A stretch of DNA of 64,000 nt from contig JANQOU010000003.1 in NCBI GenBank assembly GCA_028285585.1, positions 124,001 through 188,000 on the forward strand. The letters are read 5' to 3'. Source of the DNA: Acidimicrobiia bacterium (GTDB lineage Bacteria > Actinomycetota > Acidimicrobiia > Spongiisociales > ZC4RG35). Each line of letters begins with the position of its first letter. Within the stretch, counting starts at the first letter, position 1. The notes under the pieces were generated by a model. That model saw nothing but the letters and a program-made list of their open reading frames with translations, was not told the origin of the DNA and ran no database searches. The translations under genes were made by a program, and so were the position numbers. Shown here in pieces: positions 19,370 through 56,037 of this stretch.

Positions 19370-19412
19370 GCGTGTGCAGAAAGGAGTACCTGGTACTCCT
19401 TTCTGCACACGC
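19370..19412 (+). terminator. Perfect 20-bp stem-loop after tRNA-Thr
   Basis: GCGTGTGCAGAAAGGAGTAC pairs without mismatch with 19393-19412 across a three-base CTG loop. No T-run follows, so simple intrinsic termination is uncertain. The stem contains AAAGGAG, a Shine-Dalgarno-like word, and its complement. It lies between the tRNA and sigR and could end the tRNA transcript, be processed by RNase III, or influence sigR. Confidence 0.6.
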
Positions 19413-37497: not shown

Positions 37498-38148
37498 ATG
37501 CCCAAACTCCTCGCACTACTGATAATGATCGCAGGGCTCGGCCCGGGAGAGCTTCCCGAGTATTCCCCTGCCGGTGACAAAGCCCTGACGCTCGATCTGG
37601 AGATCGACGGCTACGAGAACGGCTTCATGGATCCCGACCGTCTTCTCGAGGTTGGCAACTGCCTGCTGGAGAGAGACGCTGCCTACACCTACTCCTTGAT
37701 GCGAGAGGCGGCCGAGGAAGATGGCATCACCCTGAGACCTTCGAGCTGCTACCGCTCCTACCACGTCCAGGAGCGCGCCTACGAGCGTCGGTGTCCGATC
37801 GTCGAGGTGCCAACCTATGCCGAGACGCCTCTTGGGGACACAGTCCAAACCGGGACCAAGCAGAGAAGGGTTTGCACTGGCCTCCCCACTGCGCGTGCCG
37901 GCTACTCCAACCACGGTTGGGGCCGTGCCATCGACTTTAGCGACCGCCGAGGGTTGCTCACTTGTTACGACAAGGAGTTCCTCTGGTTGCAGCGGAACGC
38001 GCATCGGTTTGGCTGGGTCCATCCCCGTTGGGCCCGCTGCGGTGCCGACCTCGAAGAGGCTTGGCACTGGGAGTTCGCCGGCGTGACCGACCCGACCCTC
38101 GTCGACTACGTCCGCCTCGACCCTTCCCTCCTCGCCACCGCCGAGTAA
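37498..38148 (+). CDS. M15 family D-alanyl-D-alanine carboxypeptidase-like protein
   Basis: ATG 37498 fits the predicted promoter; a GTG-type start 18 bases upstream is possible. The 216-residue product has a hydrophobic N-terminus (KLLALLIMIAGLG), likely a secretion signal. The VanY-type zinc site is seen in AGYSNHGWGRAIDFSD (first His and Asp) and AWHWEFAG (last His). SSCYRSYHVQERAYERR precedes it. Members trim the terminal D-Ala from peptidoglycan stems. Several Cys suggest disulfides. It ends at 38148, where the left copy of an inverted repeat begins. Confidence 0.85.
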   Translation: MPKLLALLIMIAGLGPGELPEYSPAGDKALTLDLEIDGYENGFMDPDRLLEVGNCLLERDAAYTYSLMREAAEEDGITLRPSSCYRSYHVQERAYERRCPIVEVPTYAETPLGDTVQTGTKQRRVCTGLPTARAGYSNHGWGRAIDFSDRRGLLTCYDKEFLWLQRNAHRFGWVHPRWARCGADLEEAWHWEFAGVTDPTLVDYVRLDPSLLATAE

Positions 38149-38175
38149 CCCCCCTACCGGCAACCTCAGGTAATG
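38147..38175 (-). repeat. Short intergenic repeat, copy 1 (inverted)
   Basis: Read on the minus strand: CATTACCTGAGGTTGCCGG then TAGGGGGGTT. It matches 39243-39270 and 56010-56037 in opposite orientation. It begins on the stop codon of the M15 gene. Together with the copy at 39243 it brackets the DUF559 gene as inverted repeats. A CCTGAT-GCA-ATCAGG palindrome follows at 38176-38190. Confidence 0.75.
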
Positions 38176-38185
38176 CCTGATGCAA

Positions 38186-39172
38186 TCAGGTTGGAGTTTC
38201 TGACAGAAACTCCCACGCCCTTGCAGGGCGCAGGTCCGTATCTGGTCCGTTTTGCCTCAAGTTCAGGGCGGTGGCAATGGAACTGACCACTCGCTCGGGC
38301 CGCTTGACGATCTCCTCCCACGTGAAACGGAGGACCGTCCATCCTGCGAGATTCGCAGCGTTGTCGCGAAGTCTGTCGGTTTCGAAAGCGTTGGAGAGCG
38401 TGTGCCAACGTCTGCTGTCAGCTTCGATGACGACTTTGTGGTCGGGATAGCACAAGTCCACGCGCCCGTTGAGAGTGGTTAGCCATTCGGGCTTGTACTG
38501 CCTGTCTGGTGTCGGCAGGCCACTCCGTTCGATGATCCCGATGAGACGGCGTTCCATCTCACTCTCTGGAGCGACGTATCCGACGCCTCGCGCCTCGAGG
38601 ATCTGCCGGAGTTTCTTGGTCCCGGGTTTTCCGCGCCTTCCGAGGCTGGAGAACAGCTGCGTCAGTTCGTCGAGTTCGAAGATACGGGCCGCCAGCCCGT
38701 TGTCGACGATCCGTTCAAGGTGTCCTTTCGTTATGACGGCAGCGAGGTCGACGATGGTTCTCTCGGGTGTGGTCACTGGAAGCTCGCGGAGTCGTGTGAC
38801 TTGGTCTTCAGTGAGGTCCGTCGGCTGATGGATGGTCACTCCGGCGAAGGAGTTAGTGCTTCCTCGTAGAACGCTGACGGTTGGGGTTATCTGTCGTGGC
38901 CGTTCCAACCCATGGATCTGTGCTGCGGACTCGTGCGATGCGACCGCCGACAGTTTGCGGCAAGCTGCGTACACAAGTGTCACCTGATCGTCGTGACGTC
39001 CGGGCAGCGCGTAGGCACCTGGCCCACATTGCACGAGTATCCCTTGGCGCACCATTCGGCTGAGTGAGGTGGATGGGACACCAAGGGCTAGGCCTTCGGA
39101 GCGTGTCACGATGCCCCCGTTGGCGATTGCGTGGTCGATGAGGGTTCCTGCGAAGTGACTCATCTTGCCCAC
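38186..39172 (-). CDS. AbiEi-like/DUF559 domain protein
   Basis: The 328-residue protein has an N-terminal winged-helix segment (GGIVTRSEGLALGVPSTSLS) like the AbiEi/transcriptional-regulator family. The C-terminal domain contains RVDLCYPDHKVVIEADSRRWH and LRFTWEEIVKRP, the DUF559 core of the Vsr-like endonuclease fold with the D...E-x-D pattern. Such genes are scattered and often strain-specific in actinobacteria, and their role is unproven. It has no operon partner. A GGAGTTTCTG/CAGAAACTCC hairpin lies over its 3' end. It lies between inverted copies of a repeat, suggesting insertion. Confidence 0.8.
   Translation of the reverse strand: MGKMSHFAGTLIDHAIANGGIVTRSEGLALGVPSTSLSRMVRQGILVQCGPGAYALPGRHDDQVTLVYAACRKLSAVASHESAAQIHGLERPRQITPTVSVLRGSTNSFAGVTIHQPTDLTEDQVTRLRELPVTTPERTIVDLAAVITKGHLERIVDNGLAARIFELDELTQLFSSLGRRGKPGTKKLRQILEARGVGYVAPESEMERRLIGIIERSGLPTPDRQYKPEWLTTLNGRVDLCYPDHKVVIEADSRRWHTLSNAFETDRLRDNAANLAGWTVLRFTWEEIVKRPERVVSSIATALNLRQNGPDTDLRPARAWEFLSETPT
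38193..38213 (-). terminator. Perfect 10-bp hairpin over the DUF559 gene end
   Basis: GGAGTTTCTG and CAGAAACTCC pair without mismatch around one base, overlapping the last codons of the gene. There is no T-run, so intrinsic termination is only possible. It may instead be part of the flanking repeat structure. Confidence 0.45.
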
Positions 39173-39215
39173 CCTGCCGCCGGCCGACCTCAGCTACTAG
39201 GGGGTTGTCGAACTA

Positions 39216-39270
39216 GAGGCCATAGGGCCCGCATTTGGTCGCTATTACCTGAGGTTAGCGATAGGGGGTT
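39216..39270 (+). repeat. Intergenic repeat, copy 2 (55 bp)
   Basis: GAGGCCATAGGGCCC followed later by ATTACCTGAGGTT and AGGGGGTT aligns without gaps to 55983-56037, at roughly 42 of 55 positions. Only the right-hand 28 bases match copy 1. It lies 95-149 bases upstream of the BMP-type transporter gene, so it could be a control element for that operon as well as a repeat. ACCTGAGGT is a near-palindrome. Confidence 0.75.
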
Positions 39271-39364
39271 CGGATGGGCGTACGTTGGGGGCAACGGCTA
39301 ACCTCGTTTGGCGGTGGGCAGGGCCTCCTTGCCCCCTTCAACCCCTTACCACGGAGGAATTGAC

Positions 39365-54745: not shown

Positions 54746-55984
54746 GTGGCATCTGAAGGGCTGAAGAAGGCCGCACTCTACATTTGGATCGCGGTCGGGG
54801 CGGTTGCCTTGGGGTATGTGGCGCTTGTCGTCGCAGAGGCGGTGCGGGTGATCTGGTTGCCGATAGCGTTTGCAGCCGGTCTCGTCTTCATCCTCGAGCC
54901 GGCAGTAAAGGCGTTCGAGAGGATGCGGATTCACAGGGTCGCAGGATCGATCCTGGCCTTCATCGTTCTCACTGCTCTGATCATCGCCGCTTTGGGCCTT
55001 GTGTTCCCGACCGTTCAGTCGCAGGGCGTCGAGCTCGCCGAGTCTTTGCCGATGCTCTTCACCGATCTGGTCGCTTGGCTTCGGGAGACGGGCGAGCGGT
55101 TCGGTGTCAACGTCGATGAGTTGCTGAGCCAGCAGGCGATCGAGGAGTGGCTGAACGACCCCGCCAATCAGGAGACCATCCAGCAGCTCCTGTCTGGATT
55201 CGGTGCCGGAGCGGGCCAAGTGATCCGCGGCGTTGCCGAAGCCGTCATCATCATCGGGCTCGCACCGGTCTTGGCTCTGTACGTGCTTATCGACCTCGAT
55301 CGGTTCAAGAGACAGTCGATCGAGCTGACCCCGCCCAGGTACCAGGAAGAGGTCGCCTATGTGAGCGGAGAGGTGGGGGGAGCACTGGGCTCATTCGTGC
55401 GGGGCCAGCTATTGGTGTCGGTGATCGTTGGCATCGCATCCAGTGTCGGCATGTGGCTGATCGACCTGCCTTTCTGGCTCTTGGTGGGAATCCTCGCCGG
55501 CTTCCTCAACTTGATCCCGTTCCTCGGGCCAGTCGTCGGAGGAGCCCTGGCCGTTCTCGTGGCGCTGTTGAACGGCGACCCTTGGCAGGCGGTTTGGGCC
55601 GTGGCGATCTTCGTGGTGATCCAGCAGATCGACAACCACGTGATCACTCCGATGATCCAGAGGACAAGAGTTCATCTGTCTCCGCTGGTGATCGTCCTCG
55701 CTTTGGTGATAGGCGGCTCGGTCGCTGGCCTGCTCGGTGTTCTCATCGCCGTTCCAGTGACCGCCGCCATCCGGATCTTGGTTGGCCATCTCTGGCGGAC
55801 CCGCGTTCTGGGCCAGTCGTGGAGGGAGGCCAGCGAGGCCATGATCGAGGTCACCGAGCCTCCGGAGCGTCTTGCTCGGATCAGCCGCAAGATTCCCGAT
55901 GACCAAGCACGTCTCTTCACCACTCAGGAGATGACACCGGTTGACCCTCCGAGCCCTGATGTTGAACAGGAGGAGCCAACCTGA
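54746..55984 (+). CDS. AI-2E family transporter
   Basis: The 412-residue protein from GTG 54746 has eight predicted membrane helices. The family signature is LVSVIVGIASSVGMWLIDLP followed by LVGILAGFLNLIPFLGPVVG, and later IDNHVITPMI. The middle soluble loop (residues 85-150) is helical. Members export AI-2-like molecules or act as Na+/H+ antiporters; substrate cannot be inferred. The C-terminus is a charged tail ending with the repeat at 55983. Confidence 0.88.
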   Translation: MASEGLKKAALYIWIAVGAVALGYVALVVAEAVRVIWLPIAFAAGLVFILEPAVKAFERMRIHRVAGSILAFIVLTALIIAALGLVFPTVQSQGVELAESLPMLFTDLVAWLRETGERFGVNVDELLSQQAIEEWLNDPANQETIQQLLSGFGAGAGQVIRGVAEAVIIIGLAPVLALYVLIDLDRFKRQSIELTPPRYQEEVAYVSGEVGGALGSFVRGQLLVSVIVGIASSVGMWLIDLPFWLLVGILAGFLNLIPFLGPVVGGALAVLVALLNGDPWQAVWAVAIFVVIQQIDNHVITPMIQRTRVHLSPLVIVLALVIGGSVAGLLGVLIAVPVTAAIRILVGHLWRTRVLGQSWREASEAMIEVTEPPERLARISRKIPDDQARLFTTQEMTPVDPPSPDVEQEEPT

Positions 55985-56037
55985 GGCTATAGGGCCCAGA
56001 TATGGGCGGCATTACCTGAGGTTTGCAGTTGGGGGTC
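55983..56037 (+). repeat. Intergenic repeat, copy 3 (55 bp)
   Basis: It aligns without gaps to 39216-39270: GAGGCTATAGGGCCC, then ATTACCTGAGGTTTGC and TTGGGGGTC. It fills the space between two convergent genes and touches both stop codons, as copy 1 does with the M15 stop. This position argues for a mobile or regulatory intergenic element rather than coding sequence. Confidence 0.75.

Follow-up and report, generated by a model that had tools for sequence, protein, structure and literature searches.

A predicted DUF559 nuclease gene bracketed by inverted copies of a dispersed palindromic repeat suggests an enzyme-and-repeat partnership resembling REP/RAYT

In an Acidimicrobiia bacterium (GCA_028285585.1), a gene encoding an AbiEi-like domain fused to a predicted Vsr/EDxHD-type nuclease domain (DUF559) lies between two inverted copies of a hairpin-forming repeat that is also scattered through the same genome. 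Related genes in other bacteria carry their own, different repeats, which points to a previously unrecognized partnership that resembles the REP/RAYT system but uses a different enzyme. The locus was examined within a window of 64,000 nucleotides (contig JANQOU010000003.1, positions 124,001 to 188,000; coordinates below are those of the window). Below, G numbers denote genomes (G000 is this genome), C numbers contigs within a genome, and L numbers individual sequence loci. The features are as follows.

38147 to 38161, plus strand: outer part of the left arm, AACCCCCCTACCGGC; the family consensus at −14 to −1, from 56 arms, is about A-CCCCCC-N-A-CC-N-S-S.
38162 to 38263, plus strand: left repeat module of 102 nt (family A, long form), consisting of AACCTCAGGTAAT, a 56-nt insert with three small hairpins (38175 to 38230), and a hairpin ending GCCTCAAGTT.
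38186 to 39172, minus strand: DUF559 gene, 328 amino acids, with a predicted AbiEi-like fold (about residues 6 to 196) and a Vsr/EDxHD nuclease domain (202 to 308); its last ~25 codons lie in the left repeat.
39211 to 39256, plus strand: right repeat module of 46 nt, AACTAGAGGCCATAG...ATTACCTGAGGTT.
39257 to 39271, plus strand: outer part of the right arm, AGCGATAGGGGGTTC.
55978 to 56037, minus strand: single family-A arm without a partner nearby, next to a stop codon on the minus strand.
19371 to 19412: 42-nt palindrome of family B, the repeat that brackets the second DUF559 paralog of this genome (C4, 417 kb).

An earlier note, made from the sequence alone, had described inverted repeats at the two ends of a 1.1-kb segment holding one DUF559 gene and no transposase, and this observation is confirmed. 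The left arm has AACCCCCCTACCGGCAACCTCAGGTAAT at 38147 to 38174, and its inverted counterpart ends at 39270; the arms at 38150 to 38174 and 39244 to 39268 are 25 nt at 88% complementarity. The composite pattern AACCCCC-N4-8-AACCTCAGG occurs twice in the window, against a mean of 0.00 in shuffled sequences. Among 42 window genes of 200 amino acids or more (simple ORF calls), only the DUF559 gene has a flanking inverted repeat scoring 16 or more. The arms are larger than the note described, being structured modules of 102 nt and 46 nt bounded on the outside by a C-run and a G-run, respectively, and the DUF559 ORF takes the place of the central spacer of a doublet. The note had also not seen that the last codons of the gene are read from the left arm or that the core recurs at 56011 to 56023 and throughout the genome. 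DUF559 is the only long ORF inside the repeats; a Pfam scan covered this ORF and its two neighbors, excluding the small antisense ORFs.

To determine how widely the repeat is distributed, we searched the whole genome and 40 relatives. The core AACCTCAGGTAAT occurs 58 times exactly in 2.59 Mb, 56 of these away from the DUF559 gene, 65 times with one mismatch allowed, and 0 times reversed. Forty of the 58 form 20 doublets of 99 to 164 bp (REPIN-like), and all 20 pairs of exact matches less than 200 bp apart are head-to-head; the rest are singles, wider pairs or lie at contig ends. One exception to the head-to-head rule is L034 (G000 C3:40074-40111), in which two cores, one with a mismatch, lie in direct orientation 25 bp apart. 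A closely similar 56-nt insert sits at the same point in dispersed copies L001, L014, L018 and L036, marking a subfamily. Doublets L020 and L041 are 98% identical and share about 24 nt of flank on each side, and L024 and L029 are 94% identical, so copies have been made. Of 56 arms, 17 directly follow a stop codon, with the C-run next. Two contigs (C13:39 and C14:24; L044 and L046) begin in a C-run with a minimal AACCTCAGGTAATGCCTGAGGTT palindrome, perhaps a repeat-caused assembly break. Two other ORFs, one lipoprotein-like and one with a membrane anchor as judged by eye (L033 658-1450 and L032 797-2070), also lie between family-A arms and may be passengers or chance pairs of single repeats. 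A 5-kb pair in L031 encloses unrelated genes and is probably two single repeats. Of the 40 relatives, only G012 has the exact pattern, as one pair (C23:72690-72797; L091) sandwiched between two convergent stop codons. Direct repeats around 23 family-A elements were no longer than in mismatched pairs, although old target duplications could have decayed. In family A nearly all predicted base pairs are invariant (1 of 29 with a two-sided change), so covariation gives no support. An Rfam search returned one hit, below its gathering score (E = 0.13).

The protein matches Pfam AbiEi_4 (2e-9) and DUF559 (1.6e-8). An AlphaFold2 model (mean pLDDT, 87.5) was compared with known structures, and a second look at the top 1000 Foldseek matches showed that residues 202 to 308 match the catalytic domain of I-Bth0305I (3r3p; Z = 13.0, 2.5 Å, 96 residues), NGO0050 (Z = 12.8) and Vsr (Z = 10.9), and residues 6 to 196 match AbiEi (Z = 12.0, 4.4 Å, 183 residues). 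In 145 homologs, D239 and E250 are invariant, E207 is kept in 138, and H257 and D266 are kept in 141 each. The immediate neighbors of the gene match VanY and Bmp rather than an AbiEii/DUF1814 toxin. A search for the RAYT-type transposase domain Y1_Tnp (PF01797) at E ≤ 0.001 found none in G000, G011 or G153, of which G011 is 81% complete.

We next asked whether the gene is a recent arrival at this site. VanY was found in 19 of 41 genomes, and DUF559 stands next to vanY in four besides this one: G011 (SMXW01000059.1; 57% identity), G012 (JANQRA01; 48%), G024 (46%; the contig ends inside) and G134 (JARDZU01; 49%). One locus first taken for a relocated copy (L095) is at the vanY site too. G011, G012, G134 and this genome show both arms, and each pair matches itself but differs from the others outside a shared CCTSAGGT tip. 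The vanY regions retrieved from G017, G016, G013 (JACZUI01), G009, G002 and G005 have no DUF559 (a further relative, G001, is JAHWLC01). G013 keeps vanY next to bmp, but the intergenic DNA does not align base for base and thus gives no base-level empty site. G013 carries elsewhere a DUF559 gene nested in the clade of the vanY-linked genes (support, 0.88 and 0.81; the G024 fragment was not placed in this tree), and in G012 a second DUF559 gene elsewhere is as close to ours (50%) as the vanY-linked one. The gene is therefore old at this site, with at least one move, or loss and gain, in its clade. Our own protein hits 1 plasmid record. The Tsukamurella protein hits 15 plasmid records, only its own over 80% or more, and 1 phage record over 63%.

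These results partly support the interpretation in the earlier note, which had proposed a non-autonomous mobile unit or a gene inserted beside an existing intergenic repeat. It was right that gene and repeats form a unit and that the same ends recur elsewhere, and G013 has vanY and bmp adjacent without the gene. Both repeats without the gene at the same place, which the note had set as a refuting observation, were not seen in the regions retrieved. A passenger gene, or one that merely landed beside a repeat, is not supported: our own first idea of recent cargo was dropped when homologs appeared at the same site, the repeats at the two ends differ from lineage to lineage but match each other, and DUF559 genes at other sites have their own matching end repeats. 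The gene is more likely the enzyme cognate to the repeats than cargo.

To investigate how general the bracketing is, we collected homologs more widely. In the order, 86 of 138 genomes have a match at 1e-20 or better, and in a sample of the phylum 82 of 296 have matches. In the first 33 loci, 24 score at least 16 for flanking inverted repeats, whereas 95% of mismatched pairs score at most 14 (the highest, with related loci included, is 34); six of 33 proteins were left out of alignment A1. In the pooled set, 162 loci gave 145 testable full-length genes after removal of 7 duplicates and 10 incomplete genes or flanks. Of these, 74 score at least 16, against 1 of 129 distal-flank controls, 5 of 1436 mismatched pairings, 0 of 165 neighboring genes in the same loci and 0 of 41 other window genes. 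Bracketing is clustered on the protein tree (27 changes against a shuffled mean of 48.5). The remaining 71 of 145 genes lack such repeats, including 8 of 8 in one genus, g23 (L100 to L106 and L109), possibly a domesticated form. Of 74 arms, 69 are more self-complementary than the mean of their shuffles. Arms of different genes score a median of 8 to 13 against each other, rising to 23.5 only for 17 pairs with proteins above 60% identity; the two arms of one gene score a median of 26.75, but this figure is inflated because units were picked for matching arms.

Besides family A, we tested the bracketing repeats of five further genes for dispersal without knowing the outcome beforehand; because palindromes give two arm hits per copy, arms exceed places. 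Family B of this genome has 21 arms with ≤1 mismatch, 17 of them elsewhere at 10 places, with 1 hit in a reversed control and 0 in 16 other genomes; it occurs as single palindromes. Family C, which brackets the third paralog, has 17 arms with ≤2 mismatches, 15 elsewhere, but none of those is exact, and one 2-mismatch hit was found in 16 other genomes. The G011 repeat has 11 exact matches, 9 elsewhere, and none exact in 16 others, which show 0 to 4 hits at 1 to 2 mismatches except for 11 in our genome, all family A. The repeat of G153, from another family of the class and a complete contig, has 13 arms with ≤2 mismatches, 9 elsewhere and 3 of them exact, with 0 in 16 others. That of G365, from another branch of the phylum, has 15 with ≤2 mismatches, 12 elsewhere and 7 exact, with 0 to 3 mismatched hits and none exact in 16 others. 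Thus, in all six whole-genome tests the bracketing repeat is dispersed in its own genome and rare or absent in the others. A seventh case, Tsukamurella tyrosinosolvens NCTC13231, is weaker. An initial count of 9 places in 3 records of one strain used a palindromic query that can match one place on both strands, and a 32-nt part gave 4 places in 2 records, 3 of them in the gene's own record. We count only two copies seen in sequence away from the gene (L328 and L329), each with 5 of 42 mismatches and both between annotated genes.

Taken together, these results are best explained, with moderate confidence, by a REP/RAYT-like system in which the DUF559 nuclease replaces the tyrosine transposase and this locus is the source gene. 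In this view, the protein would recognize its palindrome, probably as a hairpin or cruciform, through the AbiEi-like domain (that family binds inverted repeats; PMC7319586) and would nick or cut it with the Vsr-like domain, letting gene-free repeats be copied to other intergenic places by host repair or replication. Each such gene would have its own repeat family, with gene and repeats diverging together, being largely inherited in place, and the ~1.05- to 1.2-kb unit moving occasionally, the last inferred from one clade. What the analysis demonstrates is the bracketing, the self-complementary arms, dispersal within the own genome, lineage specificity and conserved catalytic residues; that the protein binds, cuts and propagates the repeats, and which partner drives the other, is inferred, since association does not show the direction of causation and no transposition was observed.

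Several alternatives appear less likely. The palindromes could be binding sites of the AbiEi-like domain, serving autoregulation plus a dispersed regulon or chromosome-organizing sites, with no nuclease action in their spread. AbiEi and Rv2827c bind inverted repeats in their own promoters, and such autoregulation could explain the upstream arm, lying within about 160 nt of the gene start, but that arm alone. However, the downstream arm matches the upstream one, family-A doublets are modules with near-identical copies at unrelated loci and a shared 56-nt insert, 17 of 56 arms directly follow a stop codon, and catalytic residues are kept; we regard this reading as unlikely but possible, and it remains the strongest competitor. 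Somewhat less likely still is a homing-type element, in which the nuclease would cut the center of an uninterrupted repeat and its gene would be copied into the break, the two arms being halves of the target site. The nuclease domain, nearest in predicted fold to the homing endonuclease I-Bth0305I, and the position of the gene in the central spacer of a family-A doublet fit this possible reading, but there is one family-A gene against 20 gene-free short doublets in this genome, and it does not explain how the repeats themselves spread.

Ordinary MITE families moved in trans by a conventional transposase, with DUF559 genes caught by chance, would account for small inverted-repeat elements dispersed between genes and for the two other ORFs between family-A arms. 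This is very unlikely given that 74 of 145 DUF559 genes but 0 of 165 neighbors are bracketed and that three paralogs in one genome have three different repeat families; no target duplications were detected around 23 family-A elements, where old ones could have decayed, and the genome-wide transposase search was confined to Y1_Tnp. That the palindromes are bidirectional terminators or insulators is a remote possibility: some copies lie between convergent genes or directly after stop codons, but this does not explain paralog-specific sequences, a matching arm on the promoter side or rarity in relatives.

The pattern matches the criteria by which RAYTs were recognized (PMC2817692; REPINs, PMC3116915): inverted flanking palindromes, codivergence and cognate abundance. 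It also shares with that system cognate repeats dispersed in the same genome, inverted doublets and several gene-repeat pairs able to coexist in one genome. It differs in that the enzyme has a predicted Vsr/EDxHD fold with an AbiEi-like domain rather than an HUH Y1 nuclease, and in that the repeats lack a GT(A/G)G head (family-A arms begin AACCTCAGGT; others differ). The 2010 RAYT study found its criteria met only in gammaproteobacteria, and the REPIN study also names Nostoc. The protein shares its predicted catalytic-domain fold and conserved acidic/His residues with EDxHD homing endonucleases and Vsr, but no intron or intein was seen here, and the gene is flanked by palindromes and fused to an AbiEi-like domain. 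With the AbiEi type IV antitoxins (AbiEi and Rv2827c) it shares the fold and sequence of the N-terminal ~190 residues, with a C-terminal nuclease added. Caulobacter VsrA (CCNA_02930; PMC12907096) is likewise a DUF559/Vsr-like nuclease but is functionally linked to a cytosine methyltransferase, with no repeat family mentioned in the text consulted, and a cyanobacterial study assigns a DUF559 gene to the EDxHD homing family (PMC9403480). Literature searches combining DUF559 with inverted repeats, Vsr endonucleases with repetitive extragenic palindromes, or REPIN and RAYT with Actinobacteria found no report of such an association, and a further search gave only papers unrelated by title, although novelty is provisional because most subscription journals and bioRxiv were outside these searches.

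In the boldest form of this interpretation, which we consider only slightly more probable than not, DUF559/AbiEi nucleases are a second, independent class of repeat-propagating enzymes: Vsr-fold endonucleases that create, maintain and spread private families of palindromic miniature elements across a bacterial phylum, with several orthogonal nuclease-repeat pairs coexisting in one genome. The three gene-repeat pairs found here offer a natural specificity experiment, and the system makes testable the question of how a nuclease that is no known transposase could propagate short palindromes. The partnership would give a function to a widespread family of unknown function, account for dispersed intergenic palindromes in genomes without a Y1/RAYT enzyme, and show that the arrangement of a resident nuclease plus dispersed palindromes exists with an unrelated enzyme fold.
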